Part shown: positions 10,083-35,807 of the stretch, one piece after another
Numbering within the stretch: position 1 is the first letter of the stretch
Layout of the letters: each line of letters begins with the position of its first letter
Assembly: GCA_016871775.1 (NCBI GenBank)
Contig: VHCI01000005.1
Span: forward strand, 1 to 55,028
Length of the DNA: 55,028 nt
Direction of reading: 5' to 3'
Origin: Verrucomicrobiota bacterium
GTDB lineage: Bacteria > Verrucomicrobiota > Verrucomicrobiia > Opitutales > Opitutaceae
Translations under genes and position numbers: made by a program
Notes under the pieces: model-generated
What the model saw: only the letters and a program-made list of their open reading frames with translations
Database searches by the model: none
Told to the model about the DNA's origin: nothing

Positions 10083-10198
10083 AAGGCGCGGAGCGTGGGG
10101 AGGATTTGCGCATTGCGCCACCCTGCGCTTGCGGTTTTCGTCCCGCCGCGAAGCCGAGCGGGCCCGCCCCGCCACCGCAGGGCCCACCCTTCGCCGAT

Positions 10199-11224
10199 AT
10201 GCCCGCCAACCTCTTCCCGCAGAACACCATCGCGCTGATCTGGGACTTCGACAAGACCCTGATACCGGGATATATGCAGTCGCCGTTGTTCCGGCGCTAC
10301 GGGGTGGACGAGGCGGCCTTTTGGCAGGAGACGAACCGGCTGGCGGCGCATTACCGGGAGCGGGGCTACCATCTGTCGCCGGAGATTGCGTACTTGAACC
10401 ACCTGTTGACCTACGTGCAGGCGGGGCCGCTGGCGGGGTTGAACAACCGGATCCTGCAGGAGTGCGGCCGGGACATCCAGTTCTACCCTGGCCTGCCGGA
10501 GTTTTTCGCGCTGGCGCAAGCCTTCACGCGGGAGAAGCCCGAGTACGTGAAGCACGAGATCACTCTGGAGCATTATGTAGTGAGCACGGGCCTCGCGCCG
10601 ATGATCCGGGGCAGCGCGATCGCGGGGCACGTCGGCGGCATCTGGGCCTGCGAGTTCATCGAGAACCCGCTACCGCCTGGTTTCCTGCGCCAGAAGGAGC
10701 TGCCGATCGAGGCCTGCGCCGAGATCGCACAGATCGGGATGGTGATCGACAACACGACGAAGACGCGGGCGATCTTCGAGATAAACAAGGGGACCAACCG
10801 GAACCCAGCGATCGATGTGAATTCGAAAATCTCCCCGGAGGACCGCCGCATCCCGGTGGCCAACATGATCTACATCGCGGATGGTCCGAGCGACGTGCCG
10901 AGCTTCGCGGTGGTCAAGAAGGGCGGCGGCCAAGCCTACGCCGTTTACAATCCCGTCAAGCCGGAGGAGTTTGAGCAGAACGACCGTCTGCTGCAATCGG
11001 GCCGCATCCACGGATACGGGCCGGCGGACTATCGTCCCGAATCGAGCACGTTCCAGTGGCTGCGACTGCATATCCGCCACTTGAGCGACCGGATCGTGGC
11101 CGACCGAGAGGCGGCCGTGGCAGCGCGGGCGACGCGCCCGCCTCGGCACCTGAATGCCACCCCAGAGGAGATCGCGGCCCGCCAGCGCCCCCAGACGCCT
11201 ACCCAATCCTCGTTCCTGGAGTAA
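10199..11224 (+). CDS. HAD-superfamily phosphatase-like hydrolase
   Basis: A 341-residue soluble protein with the HAD motif I D16-F-D18-K-T (LIWDFDKTLIPG) near the N-terminus and a later IYIADGPSDVPSF block that fits motif IV (metal-binding aspartates). This suggests a phosphoserine-phosphatase-like hydrolase with an aspartyl-phosphate intermediate and Mg2+; the substrate is unknown. The ATG at 10199 begins just before the HAD core. It is divergent from prfA across about 116 bp. The last 40 residues are polar and probably disordered. Confidence 0.8.
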   Translation: MPANLFPQNTIALIWDFDKTLIPGYMQSPLFRRYGVDEAAFWQETNRLAAHYRERGYHLSPEIAYLNHLLTYVQAGPLAGLNNRILQECGRDIQFYPGLPEFFALAQAFTREKPEYVKHEITLEHYVVSTGLAPMIRGSAIAGHVGGIWACEFIENPLPPGFLRQKELPIEACAEIAQIGMVIDNTTKTRAIFEINKGTNRNPAIDVNSKISPEDRRIPVANMIYIADGPSDVPSFAVVKKGGGQAYAVYNPVKPEEFEQNDRLLQSGRIHGYGPADYRPESSTFQWLRLHIRHLSDRIVADREAAVAARATRPPRHLNATPEEIAARQRPQTPTQSSFLE

Positions 11225-11264
11225 GCTGCGCTCAGGGAACTAATCGCAGGCGGCCGCCCGTGAC

Positions 11265-11295
11265 AAAAAAAGAGGGCCGCCCGAGCGGGCGGCCC
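11265..11295 (-). terminator. intrinsic terminator of the repeat-protein gene
   Basis: A 10-bp perfect GC inverted repeat (gggccgcccg 11274-11283, cgggcggccc 11286-11295) is followed on the minus strand by a T-run interrupted near the stem (11265-11273). It lies 26 bp past the stop of the gene at 11321. Confidence 0.85.
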
Positions 11296-11320
11296 ACAGC
11301 TTGGAGGAATGATTCGAGCC

Positions 11321-12163
11321 TTAGGTGCTGCCGCTCACCACCGGCGTATCGATCGCGGTCTGCGTCGTCGTCGTTTGCTGGGTGGTCGTCTGCTGGGTGA
11401 CTGTCGTGGTCGTAGTCGCCGCGGGCGACGCGGTGACCGCGCTGCTGATCGCCGCCGCTTGCGCCGGCGCGGCGGTAGTGGCAGCGTTAGTGATGGTCGA
11501 CTGCAACGTTGGCGCCGCCGCAACGGCGCCCACGGTGACGGAGGCGGCAGCGGCAGGCGGCACGGACGATACGGCGGCGGCGGTAACAGCAGCGACTGCG
11601 GCTTGGGCTTGAGCCGGAGACGCAGTGGACATGGTGTTGACGACCGCGCTCACCGCTGCGCCGGTCACGGCGGGGGCCGAGGCAACCGGCACGGCAGTCA
11701 CCGCGGCAGCGGTTACAGCGGCGACCGCGGCCTGCGCAAGAGCCGGTGCCGCAGTGGACAATGTGACGGCGACCGCGCTCACCGCCGCGCCGGTCACGGC
11801 GGGGGCCGAGGCGGCCGGCACGGCAGACACCGCGGCAGCAGTAACAGCGGCGACCGTATTTTGCACTTGGGCCGGGGCTGCGGCGGCGGTGGTCATCGTA
11901 GTGACGACGGCGCTGATGGCGGCGGTGGTGACGGCCGTGGCGACCTCAACCTGAGCGGTGGAGCCAGCGAAAGCCTTGATGACGGCATCGACGATGGCGG
12001 AGGCTTGGGCGGGGTTGGCCTTGACGGCGGCCTCGACCAGCGCGGCGGCTTTGCCGGGATTCGCCCTAGCCTGCTGGGCCACTTCCTCGGCGGTCTGCGC
12101 TTGCAGGGCGGGAATCGCGGCTAGGAAGCCCGCGACGAACGTTAGAACAGTACGAATTTTCAT
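11321..12163 (-). CDS. secreted Ala/Val/Thr-rich protein with 43-residue tandem repeats
   Basis: A 280-residue protein with a clear signal peptide (MKIRTVLTFVAGFLAAIPALQA). The first part (about 23-75) is an ordinary Ala-rich helical segment (EEVAQQARANPGKAAALVEA). The middle (about 105-225) holds about three copies of a 43-residue unit built around AVAAVTAAAVTAVP, SAPAVTGAAVSAV and a Thr/Ser-rich link. The C-terminus is Thr/Gln-rich (TTQQTTTT), like a spacer. No catalytic residues, cysteines or known domain are visible. It could be an envelope or surface structural protein; no function is assigned. On the minus strand a TTGACG hexamer (12208-12213) is a possible -35. The gene has its own strong terminator. 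Confidence 0.75.
   Translation of the reverse strand: MKIRTVLTFVAGFLAAIPALQAQTAEEVAQQARANPGKAAALVEAAVKANPAQASAIVDAVIKAFAGSTAQVEVATAVTTAAISAVVTTMTTAAAAPAQVQNTVAAVTAAAVSAVPAASAPAVTGAAVSAVAVTLSTAAPALAQAAVAAVTAAAVTAVPVASAPAVTGAAVSAVVNTMSTASPAQAQAAVAAVTAAAVSSVPPAAAASVTVGAVAAAPTLQSTITNAATTAAPAQAAAISSAVTASPAATTTTTVTQQTTTQQTTTTQTAIDTPVVSGST
11661..11918. repeat. 129-bp in-frame tandem repeat inside the Ala/Val-rich gene
   Basis: The string ccggtcacggcgggggccga begins at 11661 and again at 11790, a period of 129 bp, i.e. 43 codons. Surrounding bases are also well conserved between the copies, so the units differ by few substitutions. The outer limits given are approximate. Confidence 0.75.
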
Positions 12164-12326
12164 AAGAGAAAACTTATCTCCACGATGGGAGCCCTAGCTC
12201 GCGCTGACGTCAAGAAATAATCTTCTACGCGGACCTCCCCGGAAGCCCCGATTCAGCAAAAATGAACGTGGGCGGGAAAAACCGGGGGCGATTGGCCAGG
12301 GCGGACGAACGTGCTTTAATCTCCTG

Positions 12327-12545
12327 ATGCTCGTGATCCGCCGTCTGGTCGACCGACGCCGCGCCTACACCGCGCTGCTGCTGCCCGGGGAGCCGCCGCG
12401 GGTCTTTCCCACCAGCGACCATGAGCACGCTCGGATCCTGCAAATCTACAAGCAGGACCGGCCCTACGAGGGGATCGTAAACGACTTCACCGAGTTGCCC
12501 GATGCGCCGGCCCTAGCGAGGCCGGACGGCTCAAAGGCGCGCTGA
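12327..12545 (+). CDS. small hypothetical protein
   Basis: A 72-residue protein rich in charged residues (starts MLVIRRLVDRRRAYTALLLPG) with no signal peptide or recognised domain. Codons have the G/C-ending third positions of neighbouring genes, which supports a real gene, but it is short. It ends 15 bp inside the 3' end of the convergent TonB receptor gene. It is not recognised; the compact sequence looks like a small soluble protein. Confidence 0.45.
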   Translation: MLVIRRLVDRRRAYTALLLPGEPPRVFPTSDHEHARILQIYKQDRPYEGIVNDFTELPDAPALARPDGSKAR

Positions 12546-14879
12546 GAGGCTGGCCTGAAAGGTCCGACCTGGATGCCGCTGGACCGAGTTGCTGTCGGCC
12601 AGCTTATAGATCTCCTGATTATCCATCACGTTCTGGACCTTGGCCCCGAAGGTGTAGCGGACGCGGCCCGCGCCGGGGAGCGCGTAGCGGAGGACGGCGT
12701 CGAAGCGCCATTTGCCGGGCATCGTCCAGAAGGGGGTGTTGGCGATTCCCCCGAGGGTGGTGAGCACGGCCGAATCGATCGGACGGTCGCCGATGAAGAT
12801 GGAGCCGAGGGCCAGGTCGAGGCCTCGCAAGGCACCAGAGCGGAAGGCGTACTTGTTGAAGGCCGTGAACATATGGTACGGCGCGTACATCGAGCGCTGG
12901 CCGGTGCGGGTGTCGCGCGAGTCATTGTAGGCGTAGCCGCCCATCACGGACCAGGCCTCGCTGAAGCGGGCGTTGAGGTTGAACTCCACGCCGCGCGAAC
13001 GGATGCCGTCGATCAGGGTGTACCAGTCGCCGTCGCGGTTCGGATTATCGACCGCGATGTTCTGCTGGCGGATCTCGTAGGCCGCGAGGAGCCCCTGGAT
13101 GCGGTCGCCGGCGAGGCTAAAGCGCAGGCCCAGCTCGCGCTGGTTGCCCTCCTCGGGATCGATCGGGGTGCCGTCAGGCTGGCGGAGGAAGCCGGGGACG
13201 AACGAGCTGTTGGCGTTGGCGTACAACGTAAGGGAGCGGGCCCGGTTGAGGTGCCAGACGACGCCCGCGCTGAAGGTGGTCGCGTCCCCTTGGTTATCAA
13301 AGATGGACAGCCCGGTGAACCCGTTGCGGCGCCGGTCCTCGGTGCGGGTATGGCGCACGCCGCCGGTGAGGAAGAGGCGTTCCTCGAGGAAGGAGACCAC
13401 ATCGGCCGCATAGTACTCCGTGTTTTCGGTGTGGTCTAGGTTGCGGTTGCCCGCGGGCAGAGGCGGACGGTCCGCCTTGGCCGGCACGGGGGGCGAGCGC
13501 GTGGGATCGACCGCGTTCAGCGGCGGGATCATGTGGGGATTGTAGCCGGCCCGGCGCACATCCGCGAGGACCTCGGCCAGAGTCAGGTTCGGGAACACAC
13601 TGTAACGGCTCCCCACGCTGGCCGTCGGCCAGCGCTGATTCAGCGTCGCCGCGGTCGCCGCGAGGCCGCCCCGGTTGTAGATGCCATCCCGGTTCCAGAT
13701 CTCCCCGTCGGAGACGTCCCAGCTGAAGCCGACGAGGGCGCGGTGCCGAGCGGGCCCGGTGGTGAAGTTCGCCACCAGCTCGTTGCGGGAGCGCCAGTTG
13801 TCCACGTCCTGCGTGCGCACGCGCCAGCGGCGCGGCATCAGCACGGCATCGCGGAGGATGGTGAGGGAACCCTGCTCCGGCTGGTGCTCATCGTACCGCT
13901 GGTCCTTGGTGTCGTGCGCGACCTGGAGCCGCAGTTGCAGTTGCCGACCGAAGGCGTGCTGGAAGTCGGCCATCGTGAAGCCACGGTCCCAGCGGCGGAG
14001 ATCGCCTGCGGAGGCGTAGCCCTGGCGGTTGTCGCCATAGGAGAGGAACGAGCCGTCGGGCAGGGCGAAGCCGCGGGGCTCGGCGCGCATCATCGGCTGG
14101 CGCCAGACGGCGCCGCCGTCCTCCTCCCGCACGAAGAGGTGCTCGACCGCCAGCCGTGTCACCGGGGTAATCTGCCAGGCCACCACCGCGGAGAACGCCT
14201 TCTCCCCGTGCGTGATGCGCCGGTAATAGAAGCCATCGTCGTAGACGCCCGTGACGCGGAAGGAGACCGGCGAGCGGGCGCCACCCAGGCGCGCGGAGTA
14301 GTCCACCTCGGCCCGCCAGCTCTCGACCGGGCCCGCGCTCAGCCGCACGGTGGTCTGCGGGCGGTCCAAGGGACGCTTGGTGACGCGGTTGACGGTCGCG
14401 GCATAGCCGCCTTGGCCAAAGAGGACGGCCGCGGGGCCCTTAAGCACCTCCACGCGTTCGACGTTGGCCAGCGAGACCTTGCCGATGCTCTCCTGCTGGA
14501 GGAACCCGTTGATGAACTTCGTGTTCGCGTTGGCGAAGCCGCGGACCGTCCACGCGTCGTTGTTGGAGGTCGCGACGAAGCCGGGCACGTACTCGAGGAC
14601 ATCCTCCGTGCTGCGGGCGAGCGTGTCCTCGAGGAACGCCTGGTTCAAGACGGTCACGTTCATCGGGATGTCCCCGATGGCGGTGTTCATCCGCGTGACC
14701 TCGGCGGCGTGGGTCGACTGGTAGCCGATGTCGCGGGTGCTGCTGACCTCGAAGGTCGAGAGCGCCACCGGGTCCTGGCCCTCGGCCGGCCGGGGGGCCG
14801 GAATGCCTTGGGCCGGGAGGAGCGGGGCAAGGGCAAGGGACGCAAGCAGGGCGCGAAGAGGGCAACAGGCGGTACGCAT
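12531..14879 (-). CDS. TonB-dependent siderophore-type receptor
   Basis: A 782-residue outer-membrane receptor: signal peptide (LLASLALAPLLPAQG), short N-terminal extension (ALSTFEVSSTRDIGYQS), plug domain from about 55 (MNVTVLNQAFLED, then WTVRGF, then VEVLKGPAAVLFGQGG), and a barrel ending in SLSARL. The GPAAVLFGQG block is typical of ferric-siderophore receptors (FhuA/FhuE-like), so ferric chelate uptake is the best guess. The ATG at 14879 is chosen because it starts the signal peptide. It is divergent from the liv cassette; no Fur box was convincingly identified in the 233-bp gap. Confidence 0.9.
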   Translation of the reverse strand: MRTACCPLRALLASLALAPLLPAQGIPAPRPAEGQDPVALSTFEVSSTRDIGYQSTHAAEVTRMNTAIGDIPMNVTVLNQAFLEDTLARSTEDVLEYVPGFVATSNNDAWTVRGFANANTKFINGFLQQESIGKVSLANVERVEVLKGPAAVLFGQGGYAATVNRVTKRPLDRPQTTVRLSAGPVESWRAEVDYSARLGGARSPVSFRVTGVYDDGFYYRRITHGEKAFSAVVAWQITPVTRLAVEHLFVREEDGGAVWRQPMMRAEPRGFALPDGSFLSYGDNRQGYASAGDLRRWDRGFTMADFQHAFGRQLQLRLQVAHDTKDQRYDEHQPEQGSLTILRDAVLMPRRWRVRTQDVDNWRSRNELVANFTTGPARHRALVGFSWDVSDGEIWNRDGIYNRGGLAATAATLNQRWPTASVGSRYSVFPNLTLAEVLADVRRAGYNPHMIPPLNAVDPTRSPPVPAKADRPPLPAGNRNLDHTENTEYYAADVVSFLEERLFLTGGVRHTRTEDRRRNGFTGLSIFDNQGDATTFSAGVVWHLNRARSLTLYANANSSFVPGFLRQPDGTPIDPEEGNQRELGLRFSLAGDRIQGLLAAYEIRQQNIAVDNPNRDGDWYTLIDGIRSRGVEFNLNARFSEAWSVMGGYAYNDSRDTRTGQRSMYAPYHMFTAFNKYAFRSGALRGLDLALGSIFIGDRPIDSAVLTTLGGIANTPFWTMPGKWRFDAVLRYALPGAGRVRYTFGAKVQNVMDNQEIYKLADSNSVQRHPGRTFQASLSARL

Positions 14880-31152: not shown

Positions 31153-34100
31153 CTATTGGCACGCCTCGCAGGTTTCCCCGCGGCGCATCGCCTCGATGCC
31201 GCAGGCCTTCTTCTCCTCCTCGGAGAATTCCCGCTTGGCGGCAGACTTGGCCTCGGCCTCGGCGGCGATGCCCCGGACCTCCTTCTTAGCGGCGACGGTG
31301 GCCTTCTCGATGTTGGAGGCCCCGAGGCTGCGGAGGTAATAGGTGGTCTTGAGCCCCGCGTGCCACGCATGCCGGTACATATGGCTCAGCGTCTTGAGGT
31401 CGGGGGTCTTGATCCAGAGGTTCACCGACTGAGCCTGGTCGATCCACTTCTGGCGTCGGGCGGCGGCGTCGACGATCCACTTGTGGTCGATGTCGAAGGC
31501 GGTGAGGTACTTGACCTTGAGGTCGGCGGGAATGCGCTCGATGTCCTTCAGCTCGCCGTCGAAGTACTTCAGGTTGTCGATCATATCCTGATCCCACAGC
31601 CCGCGGGCCTTGAGGTCCTTCACGAGGAAGGGGTTCAGGACGATGAACTCACCCGAGAGGTTAGATTTGACGAAGAGGTTCTTGTAGGTCGGCTCGATGC
31701 AGGGCGAGGTGGCCGTGATATTTGAGATCGTCGCGGTGGGCGCGATGGCGAGACAGTTGGAGTTCCGCATCCCTTGACGCGCGATCTTCTGGCGCAGGGG
31801 CGTCCAGTCTAGCCGGCCACCGCGCGGAACCTCCACCGGCAGGCCGCGCTCCTTTTCCAGCAGGTCGAGAGTATCTTGGGGCAACAGCCCGCGGTCCCAC
31901 TTCGAGCCCTTGTAGCTGGAATACGTGCCGCGTTCCGCGGCCAAGTCGGAGCTGGCCTCATAGGCGTAGAAGGCGACCGCCTCCATCGCCTCGTCGTTGA
32001 AATCCACCGCCTCCGGGGAGGCGAAAGCGTGGCCGCGGAGGTAAAGGGCGTGAGCGAGGCCCATCACCCCCATCCCGATCGGACGGTGGCGCAGGTTGGA
32101 GACTTTGGCCGCCTCGGTCGGGTAAAAGTTGATGTCGATGACGTTGTCGAGGGCGCGCACCGCAGTGCGGACGGTCTCGCGCAGCATCTCGTGGTCCAGT
32201 GAGCCGTCGGGCCTGAGGTGGCTGTCGAGGATGACGGAGCCGAGGTTGCAGACGGCGGTCTCCTCGTTGCTGGTGTTGAGCGTGATCTCCGTGCAGAGGT
32301 TGGACGAGTGGATCACGCCGACGTGGTCCTGCGGCGAGCGCAGGTTGCAGGCGTCCTTGAAGGTGATCCAAGGATGGCCGGTCTCGAAGAGCATCGAGAG
32401 CATCTTCTTCCAGAGCTCTAGCGCCTCAATCTTTTGCCCGTGGATGCGACCCTCCTCAGCGAGGCGCTCGTACTCGAGATAGCGGCGCTCGAAAGCGGCC
32501 CCGTAAAGTTCGTGCAGGTCCTCCACCTGATTGGAGCGGAACAGGGTCCAGTGCTGACGCGCCTCCATCCGCTTCATGAACAGGTCCGGGATCCAATTGG
32601 CCGTGTTCATATCGTGCGTTCGACGGCGATCGTCGCCCGTGTTCTTGCGGAGCTCGAGGAACTCGAAGATGTCGTTATGCCAAGTCTCGAGGTAAGCGCA
32701 GCCGGAACCCTTGCGCTTGCCGCCCTGGTTCACCGCGACGAGCTGGTCGTTGTGGAGCTTAAGGAAGGGGATGACGCCCTGCGACTCGCCATTGGTGCCG
32801 GAGATGTGGGCTCCGGTGCCGCGGACCGCGGTCCAGGAACCGCCCAACCCGCCCGCCCACTTCGCGAGGAACGCGTTGTCGGCGATGCCGCGGAGCATGA
32901 TGCTCTCGAGGGAGTCATCGACGTAATAGAGGTAGCAGGAGGAGAGCTGGGAATGGAGCGTCCCGGAATTGAAAAGCGTGGGCGTGCTGCTGCAGAAGCG
33001 GCGGCTCTTGTAGAGCTCATAGAGCCCCGCCACGCAGGCCTCGCGGTCGCCCGGCTCGTCCAGCATCAGCCCCATCGACACGCGCAGCCAGAAATACTGG
33101 GGCGTCTCAAGGCGGCGGGAAGGCTTCCGGGTCTTGTCGATGATCAGGTAGCGGTCGTAGAGGGTCTGGATGCCGAGGAAGTCGAACTCTAGGTCGGAGG
33201 AGGGATCGAGGATCGCAGCCAGACGGGAGAGGTCGTATTCAAGGAGGCGGGGATTGAGCCGCTTGATGGCGACCCCGCGCTCGAGGTACTTGCGGAAGCC
33301 GCGCTGGTGGGACGCTTTGAGGGCGCCGATCCCATCGCGCATGATGTCCCAGCCGAGAACCTCCTCATATATGTAGGTCAGCTGGATGCGGCCGGCGAAC
33401 TTGGCGAAGTCGGCGTCCCGCTCGATCAGCGTCTTCGAATTGAGGACGATCGTGGCGTCGAGGTCCTTCTGGCTGATTTGGTCATAGACCGAGCGGCGGA
33501 GCTCAGCCTCGATCTCATCGTTGGACAGGAAGAGGTCTAGGCCAATGCGGGCGAACTCGATGCGGCGGCGGAGGTCGGCGCCGTCCCAGAATACGTTGCT
33601 GCCGTCGGCCTTCTTGACCACGATCATCGAAGCTTGGCCGGCAGCGGGGGTGGCCTCAGGGGCCGCGGCCACGGCGGGCACAACCAGCCCGAGGTCCCGG
33701 GCGGCGGCGCGCTCGGCGCGGAACAGGATGTAGGCCTCGGCCACCTTGTAATGGCCTGCCTTCATCAGCTCCTCCTGCACCATGTCCTGGATCTCCTCGA
33801 TGTGGATGAAGGACTGCTTCGAGGAATGCACCCGCTGCGACACCGCCCGGGTGATGGCGACAGCGGGGGCGGAATCCCGCTGGAGCGAAAGGAAAGTCTT
33901 CCGGACCGCGATCTCGACCTTGCGCTCGCTCCACGGGACAACCTGGTTGTTGCGCCGGATCACCCGCAGGGTCGAGACGGCGGCCGCCTCGCGGTCCACG
34001 GCGATCTTGCGGGCACGGTTGAGGAGGAGGCTCTTGGCGATAAAATAGGAATTGTTGTCGACCAAGGTCTTCTCGATGAGCTCGTAGAGGGCATCAAGCG

Positions 34101-34431
34101 AGAGCCGGACCGGCGCCTGTCCTCGAGCGAGCTCGGCGAGGTGACCAGCGACCTCGCGGCAGATCTTGGCGACCCAGAGGCGGTTCTGCTCGGTGAAGAT
34201 CTCCTTCTCGCCGCGCGCGAGATGCACGTTGGTCAGCGCCTTCCCGAGGGTGTCGGCCACCTCCGCCAGCGCGAATCGCTCCTCCCCGTGCGGGCACAAG
34301 AGGACGATCTCCGGCACCGAGATGCCTTGACCCGCGATCACGTCGCGCCACGCGTAATGCGGCTTCTGTTCGACCGGGGCGTGGACCGTGCGTTTGAGGG
34401 CGAGATCGTGGGCCAGCGAAGGATGACTCAT
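31153..34431 (-). CDS. nrdA: class I ribonucleotide reductase large subunit, long ATP-cone N-terminus
   Basis: A 1092-residue NrdA, much longer than the 761 residues of E. coli. Three N-terminal ATP-cone-like segments are seen: a diverged one (about 40-145), a canonical one (about 154-245, VIRRNNQVVPWSERKVE), and one at the usual NrdA N-terminus (about 268-360, VVKKADGSNVFWDGAD). The catalytic barrel has SSC (C499), NLCTEI (N711, C713, E715) and AVCNLGS (C728), the active-site cysteine set; the C-terminal CEAC (C1088, C1091) is the redox relay to thioredoxin. It reduces ribonucleotides with NrdB. The ATG at 34431 is preferred over one 8 codons upstream. It is downstream of nrdB on the same strand, with a terminator between. 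Confidence 0.96.
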   Translation of the reverse strand: MSHPSLAHDLALKRTVHAPVEQKPHYAWRDVIAGQGISVPEIVLLCPHGEERFALAEVADTLGKALTNVHLARGEKEIFTEQNRLWVAKICREVAGHLAELARGQAPVRLSLDALYELIEKTLVDNNSYFIAKSLLLNRARKIAVDREAAAVSTLRVIRRNNQVVPWSERKVEIAVRKTFLSLQRDSAPAVAITRAVSQRVHSSKQSFIHIEEIQDMVQEELMKAGHYKVAEAYILFRAERAAARDLGLVVPAVAAAPEATPAAGQASMIVVKKADGSNVFWDGADLRRRIEFARIGLDLFLSNDEIEAELRRSVYDQISQKDLDATIVLNSKTLIERDADFAKFAGRIQLTYIYEEVLGWDIMRDGIGALKASHQRGFRKYLERGVAIKRLNPRLLEYDLSRLAAILDPSSDLEFDFLGIQTLYDRYLIIDKTRKPSRRLETPQYFWLRVSMGLMLDEPGDREACVAGLYELYKSRRFCSSTPTLFNSGTLHSQLSSCYLYYVDDSLESIMLRGIADNAFLAKWAGGLGGSWTAVRGTGAHISGTNGESQGVIPFLKLHNDQLVAVNQGGKRKGSGCAYLETWHNDIFEFLELRKNTGDDRRRTHDMNTANWIPDLFMKRMEARQHWTLFRSNQVEDLHELYGAAFERRYLEYERLAEEGRIHGQKIEALELWKKMLSMLFETGHPWITFKDACNLRSPQDHVGVIHSSNLCTEITLNTSNEETAVCNLGSVILDSHLRPDGSLDHEMLRETVRTAVRALDNVIDINFYPTEAAKVSNLRHRPIGMGVMGLAHALYLRGHAFASPEAVDFNDEAMEAVAFYAYEASSDLAAERGTYSSYKGSKWDRGLLPQDTLDLLEKERGLPVEVPRGGRLDWTPLRQKIARQGMRNSNCLAIAPTATISNITATSPCIEPTYKNLFVKSNLSGEFIVLNPFLVKDLKARGLWDQDMIDNLKYFDGELKDIERIPADLKVKYLTAFDIDHKWIVDAAARRQKWIDQAQSVNLWIKTPDLKTLSHMYRHAWHAGLKTTYYLRSLGASNIEKATVAAKKEVRGIAAEAEAKSAAKREFSEEEKKACGIEAMRRGETCEACQ

Positions 34432-34463
34432 GGCGGCGGGAAGGGACGGCGGCAAAGGGGGGG

Positions 34464-34554: not shown

Positions 34555-35640
34555 TCAGAGGTCGTCGTCGCGAACGGGGTTGAGGGCGGACGCCTTCTGA
34601 TACTCGGTGACACGACCCTCGAAAAAGTTCTGCTCCTTCTTAATGTCCATCATTTCGGCGAGCCAGGGCAGGGGATTCTTCACCCCGGGAGAGAGCGGCG
34701 CCAGCCCGCAGCTCTCGAGGCGACGGTCAGCGATATAATCGATGTAGGTAATGAAATCGTCGGCGGACAGACCGATCGAGTTAACCGGCAGACAGTCGCG
34801 GATGAATTCCTTCTCGAGCTCGACCGCCTCGCGCATCAGACCGCGGAGCTCGTCCTTGAAATCGGGTGTCCAGATTTCGCGATTCTCGTCGACTAGGTCC
34901 ATAAAGAGGTTCCGGAAGACCTCGATGTGGTTGGATTCGTCGCGCAGGGTGTAGCGGAACATCTGGCCGATGCCCGGAAATTTATTTTGACGGTATAGCG
35001 AAAGCACCATCCCGAAAAGCCCGTAGAACTGAGTGCCCTCCATGCACTGACCGAAGACGAAGACGTTGCGAGCGAGCAGGCGCTTGTTCTCCGGCCGCGT
35101 GAGGTCGAGGTCCCGGCGCAGAGCGCGCGAAGTGCGGGTGACAAACTCGTTCTTTCGGACGATCGTCGGGATGTCCTCGAACATCGACTCGCACTCGTGC
35201 GGGTTGATCTGCAGCGAAGAGATCATGTAGAGGAGGGAATCCGCGTGGATGTTCTCCTCGTGGGCGTGGCGGCCCAGGACCAGCTTGAGCTCCGGGGCCG
35301 TCACCAGTTCGCGCACCACGTGCTGAATGTTGTCCCCCACGATGCCCTCGGCGGCCGAAAAGTAGCCAATGCCCATCCGGATGATCCAGCGCTCGACCTC
35401 CGAGACCGTCTTCTCGTCCCGCCATTGCTCGATATCCTTACCCATCGGGATATCCTCCGGCTCCCAGTGGTTCGCCTTCATCGTCCGATAGAGGTCATAG
35501 GCCCACTGGTACTTAAGCGGCAGCAAATTGAAGGTCATCGATTCCCGGCCGTTGATCACCTGCTTGGCGGCGAAGGCGGCCTCGGCCTTATTCTGGTCGA
35601 GGACGAAGGACTTGGCGCCGATCTGGAAGGTCTTTTGCAT
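34555..35640 (-). CDS. nrdB: class I ribonucleotide reductase small subunit, Leu at the radical site
   Basis: A 361-residue ferritin-like R2 protein. All six dimetal ligands are found: E98, E129, H132, E201, E235 and H238, with spacing like that of the class Ic R2 of Chlamydia trachomatis (first ligand Glu, not Asp). The radical position, four residues after the first histidine, is L136 (ENIHADSLLYMI), whereas class Ia has Tyr and Chlamydia has Phe. A tyrosine remains at Y138, and the C-terminal relay Y347 (EGRVTEYQ) is present. A stable tyrosyl radical is therefore not expected at the usual place. The ATG at 35640 is chosen because homology starts at MQKTFQIG. It is first of nrdB-nrdA. Confidence 0.95.
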   Translation of the reverse strand: MQKTFQIGAKSFVLDQNKAEAAFAAKQVINGRESMTFNLLPLKYQWAYDLYRTMKANHWEPEDIPMGKDIEQWRDEKTVSEVERWIIRMGIGYFSAAEGIVGDNIQHVVRELVTAPELKLVLGRHAHEENIHADSLLYMISSLQINPHECESMFEDIPTIVRKNEFVTRTSRALRRDLDLTRPENKRLLARNVFVFGQCMEGTQFYGLFGMVLSLYRQNKFPGIGQMFRYTLRDESNHIEVFRNLFMDLVDENREIWTPDFKDELRGLMREAVELEKEFIRDCLPVNSIGLSADDFITYIDYIADRRLESCGLAPLSPGVKNPLPWLAEMMDIKKEQNFFEGRVTEYQKASALNPVRDDDL

Positions 35641-35738: not shown

Positions 35739-35780
35739 GACCACAACGGGCTGTGGTTATTACTCGCGCCGACCACAACC
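35739..35780. promoter_or_regulatory. paired repeats, candidate NrdR-type operator
   Basis: gaccacaac occurs at 35739-35747 and again at 35771-35779, exactly 32 bp apart. The first copy is half of a palindrome (ccacaacgggctgtgg, 35741-35756). Known NrdR boxes come in pairs about 31-32 bp apart upstream of nrd genes, so the geometry fits; the bases differ from the published AT-rich consensus, so this is tentative. The second repeat abuts the proposed -10. Confidence 0.4.
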
Positions 35781-35807
35781 TATGGGAATCGGACCTATAC
35801 CCGTCAA
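35779..35807 (-). promoter_or_regulatory. candidate sigma70-type promoter of nrdB
   Basis: On the minus strand TTGACG (35802-35807) is followed 17 bp later by CATAGG (35779-35784). The start of nrdB is about 135 bp downstream, leaving a long leader that holds the palindrome at 35741-35756. In the rest of 35641-36047 no gene was recognised. Confidence 0.5.

Follow-up and report, generated by a model that had tools for sequence, protein, structure and literature searches.

Leucine in place of the radical tyrosine in a verrucomicrobial NrdB that is probably a class Ic-like RNR beta subunit

Where a class I RNR keeps its oxidising equivalent if the beta subunit carries a leucine in place of the radical tyrosine is the question raised by an nrdB gene in a 55,028-nucleotide stretch of DNA from an Opitutaceae member of the Verrucomicrobiota (contig VHCI01000005.1; this whole stretch is called the window in the following). 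On the minus strand the gene is an open frame of 361 residues plus stop, while the plus strand of the same interval contains stops and encodes no RNR (Table 1). The coordinates given in the initial annotation were retained; the strand was absent there and is now added. In a phmmer search against the PDB the closest solved relative of the product is the Chlamydia trachomatis NrdB (4d8f, E 4.6e-79), and the nearest NCBIfam model is PRK07209 for the Pseudomonas aeruginosa-type NrdBza (332.9 bits). The phmmer alignment is gapless in the site region and places L136 at F127 and Y138 at Y129 of C. trachomatis NrdB. Moreover, all six metal ligands of the R2 fold are present in this alignment, i.e., E98, E129, H132, E201, E235 and H238, and E98 aligns to E89. 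This bears out what was initially proposed for the six ligands, for the leucine in the radical-tyrosine column and for a glutamate as first ligand as in class Ic.

Table 1. Features of the nrdAB locus and their positions in the window.
Feature	Position	Strand	Basis
Two-box element TGTGG-N16-CCACA-N6-TGTGG, NrdR-box-like	35740..35790	-	conserved spacing, repeats 32 bp apart
nrdB, 361 aa, class I RNR beta subunit, Leu136 at radical-Tyr column	34555..35640	-	translation, PF00268 E 1.5e-66
E98 codon, first metal ligand, Glu not Asp	35347..35349	-	alignment to C. trachomatis E89
E129-x-x-H132 metal-ligand motif	35245..35256	-	alignments
Leu136 codon CTC, radical-tyrosine column	35233..35235	-	alignments
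E201 codon, metal ligand	35038..35040	-	alignments
T231 codon, second-sphere position	34948..34950	-	clade conservation; class Id Thr191 column
E235-x-x-H238 metal-ligand motif	34927..34938	-	alignments
Y347 codon, C-terminal radical-transfer tyrosine, followed by acidic tail DDDL	34600..34602	-	conservation
nrdA, class I RNR alpha subunit	31153..34431	-	PF02867 E 2.4e-182, ATP-cone, PF00317

The survey of the leucine column that had been suggested initially drew its homologues from the phylum (388 genomes), from 80 named contigs and from plasmid and phage records, as well as from two other groups (199 and 299 genomes), which were reached via seemingly misbinned contigs. Of 228 distinct R2 proteins in the alignment, 144 combine a Glu first ligand with Leu in the radical column (Glu/Leu), 24 are Glu/Phe and 59 Asp/Tyr, and the one remaining protein is a degenerate paralog with Gln/Leu. 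This coupling is strict over the 227 intact proteins, with the counts referring to distinct sequences, many of them closely related, and not to independent events. The class Id pairing Glu/Tyr is an exception known outside this set and was encountered here in one Blattabacterium plasmid protein. Within the Leu clade the residue is invariant (144/144 distinct homologues) and is encoded by six different codons (CTG 60, CTC 59, TTG 9, CTT 9, CTA 4, TTA 3), showing that leucine is maintained by selection. Chance or a sequencing error, the latter having been considered in the initial annotation, is thereby ruled out as its origin.

Among the sources of the homologues are some odd records. Three loci filed as Rubrivivax (L035), Planctomycetaceae (L080) and Akkermansia muciniphila (L074) carry nrdB genes that are 85-98% identical to the present one, and these are likely misbinned or mislabelled assemblies. 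Furthermore, two genomes of the group around G388 (titled Planctomycetaceae) contain a Leu-type nrdB with 76% identity (L186, L187), due to either transfer or contamination.

At the sequence level, a leucine at the radical-tyrosine site is not new. As early as 2009, RNRdb used the names NrdB-Phe or NrdB-Leu for NrdBs whose centre is Mn(IV)-Fe(III) (PMC2795772), and the later definition of subclass Ic (NrdBzc) names Phe, Leu or Val for this site (PMC6370689). Phe or Leu is also found in the class Ic references (PMC12918982) and likewise in class O proteins (PMC9531940), and Hogbom 2010, as far as its content is conveyed by PMC3824934, gives Leu, Ile and Val. The protein is therefore a well-conserved member of the known NrdB-Leu type and not a distinct new variant as was initially thought. 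The Mn/Fe label of NrdB-Leu would apply to it by analogy; in the open-licence papers searched, neither a purified Leu-type enzyme nor one with measured metals or EPR was found.

The genome, which is 96% complete, encodes a single PF00268 protein and a single PF02867 protein, the latter being the product of nrdA directly downstream of nrdB on the same strand. For nrdA the ATG matching its relatives was taken as start, the ORF tool giving an upstream TTG at 34455. NrdA contains the catalytic cysteine motifs SSCYLY, NLCTEI and AVCNLGS, the tyrosine pair in TYYLR and a C-terminal CEACQ. Neither NrdD (family search) nor a monomeric class II NrdJ (model search) was found in the 96%-complete genome, and NrdI was not found in it either. 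The search for a monomeric RNR was needed because five relatives without nrdAB (G010, G075, G080, G099 and G284) match the model for the monomeric B12-dependent RNR, below its cut-off, although the PF02867 search of the first four, with G010 belonging to the same genus, had shown nothing. Opitutaceae seem to switch between nrdAB and the monomeric B12-dependent RNR. In the present genome nrdAB is the only RNR seen, with another gene being possible in the missing 4%. As the sole RNR found, the enzyme would have to work without the radical tyrosine. A role as a non-catalytic beta-prime subunit, for which the degenerate paralogs in the family give a precedent, or as an R2lox-like oxidase is extremely improbable for this protein, since the only NrdB of the genome adjoins its only NrdA, the ligands, Y347 and the acidic tail are intact and the NCBIfam R2lox models score 46.4 bits versus a cut-off of 194.

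Three relatives carry tandem nrdB genes, and in one of them a copy has lost four ligands. This degenerate NrdB (L114:7455-8513, genome G379) is located just upstream of an intact one (L114:8583-9647), followed by nrdA at 10176-13442. It shows the exchanges E98Q, H132R, E235V and H238R and has lost the C-terminal tyrosine, while the open frame and the DDDL tail are kept; its product is possibly a bacterial beta-prime like the yeast Rnr4. G116 (L112:8447-9529) carries nrdB, a second nrdB and nrdA in this order, and the same tandem pair is present in G208 (L113:6896-7993). These second NrdBs have 56-59% identity, retain all ligands, carry V101D, Y138H and Y230N and are devoid of the NFFEGRV stretch ahead of the C-terminal tyrosine.

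Upstream of nrdB a two-box element was identified (Table 1). Most of 121 upstream regions of Opitutaceae loci contain it with unchanged spacing, located at about -100 to -220, and its consensus was derived from 67 distinct copies. In the window the classical NrdR-box consensus gives chance-level matches only, the conserved element having another sequence. The presence of an nrdR gene in the genome together with the 32-bp repeat suggests that the element is probably an NrdR operator of unusual sequence.

As position 136 holds no oxidisable residue, the oxidising equivalent must be held either by the metals or by a different residue. The usual tyrosyl radical, which was already considered impossible in the initial annotation, has no side chain at this position. 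A tyrosyl or other radical might be suspected elsewhere, for example on Y138, on Y230 or on Y93, which is specific to the clade, as Y138 and Y230 are near-invariant and Y93 is invariant in the Leu clade and Phe in the other types. However, the Y138 column holds a tyrosine in the other types as well (24/24 Phe-type, 42/59 Tyr-type), that of Y230 is likewise Tyr in all 24 Phe-type and most Tyr-type proteins, and three Leu-type proteins have His138; Y138 and Y230 are therefore no replacement for the lost tyrosine. Y93 lies five residues before a ligand on the same helix and, by helix geometry, should face away. Such a radical is thus very unlikely. The role of Y138 as a displaced radical site, as contemplated initially, is rejected both because of the gapless local alignment to F127/Y129 of C. 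trachomatis and because of the tyrosine being present there in Tyr-type enzymes as well. A literature search on Y129, Y222 and F127 of C. trachomatis NrdB returned nothing.

This leaves the metals as the probable seat of the oxidant, as was proposed before, and we regard the protein as probably a functional, class Ic-type beta subunit of a class I RNR, corresponding to NrdB-Leu of RNRdb or NrdBzc, in which a Mn(IV)/Fe(III) centre is the likeliest state. Mn(IV)/Fe(III) is put first because the ligands and the second sphere match the NrdBzc row, the fold matches C. trachomatis NrdB and the relay is kept. The first sphere E-E-H-E-E-H and the second-sphere residues E128 and D234 are those of the published NrdBzc (class Ic) row and differ from the class Id NrdBi row, which has Cys/Ser at the column of E128 (PMC6370689). 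The AlphaFold model of the protein (pLDDT 87.8), for which five rows from plasmid or phage records were left out of the input alignment, superimposes with VIA-align on C. trachomatis 4d8g with Z 42.4 and 2.3 A over 326 residues, followed by Aquifex aeolicus (Z 37.2) and the class Id protein of L. blandensis (Z 33.5). Both the best sequence and the best fold matches are thus Mn/Fe structures of C. trachomatis NrdB. Moreover, the relay residues W59, D234, Y230 and Y347 are conserved, with Y347 being invariant in the 144 Leu-type, 24 Phe-type and 59 Tyr-type proteins. The typical C-terminus of the Leu clade is an acidic tail, DDEL in 88 proteins and DDDL in 48, which together account for nearly all members; these tallies cover the Leu clade only, as the matches to the other types end before this position. 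Against Mn/Fe count T231, Q198, Q204 and M227, which differ from the second sphere of C. trachomatis.

Mechanistically, O2 (or peroxide) would oxidise the two-metal centre of this class Ic-like enzyme to high valence, with Mn(IV)/Fe(III) as the likeliest product, and the centre would thereby store the oxidising equivalent held by the tyrosyl radical in class Ia/Ib. Leu136 would act as an inert filler at the place of the tyrosine, and the hole would leave via W59, D234, the H132 side and the C-terminal Y347 to the tyrosine pair and the active-site cysteine of the adjoining NrdA.

A class Id-like dimanganese centre, Mn2(IV,III), which superoxide or peroxide would activate, with the leucine replacing the non-radical tyrosine of that class, is unlikely. 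The glutamate as first ligand is shared with class Id, and T231, which is Thr in 144/144 proteins of the Leu clade, occupies exactly the column of the class Id Thr191 (E195 minus 4), a column that is Ile in nearly all of Ia and Ic (24/24 Phe-type, 51/59 Tyr-type). T231 together with Q198 and Q204 marks the Leu clade, making a class Id-like cofactor a real though weaker rival. However, the second ligand is preceded by Glu128, the class Ic pattern, and not by Cys/Ser as in class Id, the position E98+4 is an invariant Gly102 in the Leu clade and no Lys, class Id retains and requires its tyrosine and the best matches are to class Ic. Similarly, a high-valence diiron centre or a so far unrecognised clade-specific chemistry has little probability: the long separate branch and the clade-specific second-sphere residues would accord with it, but no sequence feature favours it and Mn greatly enhances the activity of the C. 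trachomatis class Ic enzyme (PMC4118035).

The phylogeny bears on this question. After masking of the two trait columns and removal of long rows, the Leu proteins form one clade (99/95). The Phe type and the P. aeruginosa-like Tyr type group together to its exclusion, in trees that contain long branches and are rooted at the midpoint. Forcing Leu and Phe proteins into one clade lowered lnL by 20.3 (p-AU 0.047), and such a single clade is only marginally rejected. Because the Leu clade lies outside the Phe clade in these trees, the two may not have inherited their cofactor from a common ancestor. It is conceivable, though rather doubtful, that loss of the tyrosine in the verrucomicrobial Leu clade was independent of that in the Chlamydia Phe clade and that the mixed second sphere of the Leu clade, combining Leu136 with the class Id-like Thr231 and with Gln198 and Gln204, sustains a different oxidant from the Mn/Fe centre of Chlamydia, e.g., Mn2. 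A natural Leu-type enzyme bears on whether the tyrosine loss was a single or a repeated event, and it offers a means to ask what decides between Mn/Fe and Mn2 in the R2 scaffold. The tyrosine-less solution is spread through a whole Verrucomicrobiota clade, and in this genome it belongs to the only RNR found.

Compared to known systems, the protein agrees with NrdB-Leu of RNRdb and with NrdBzc in the leucine at the radical-tyrosine site, the glutamate as first ligand, the glutamate before the second ligand and D234, and no tested feature differs from NrdB-Leu, this likeness referring to the published definition and leaving clade identity with the RNRdb entries aside. With the R2c of C. trachomatis (1syy, 4d8f, 4m1i) it shares all ligands, the counterparts of W51, Y222, D226 and Y338, the fold and a partner NrdA with ATP-cone; it differs in having Leu136 versus Phe127, T231, Q198, Q204 and M227, at 37-40% identity and on a separate branch. 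The class Id NrdBi proteins (F. johnsoniae, L. blandensis, F. ignava) likewise have Glu as first ligand and Thr at the fourth Glu minus 4, but carry Tyr and Cys/Ser where this NrdB has Leu136 and Glu128, so that the Tyr/Glu pairing is replaced by Leu136 with E98; the studied subgroup has a helix-B Lys at E+4 in place of G102, and the similarity is much lower. The P. aeruginosa-type NrdBza (L174), presumed to be class Ia, has Asp as first ligand and Tyr in the radical column in contrast to Glu98 and Leu136. Class Ie has lost carboxylate ligands and forms a DOPA radical, whereas here the carboxylates are kept and the site holds no tyrosine. Finally, R2lox proteins are recognised by their NCBIfam cut-off and have no C-terminal tyrosine, whereas this NrdB scores below that cut-off, carries Y347 and a DDDL tail and is encoded next to nrdA.
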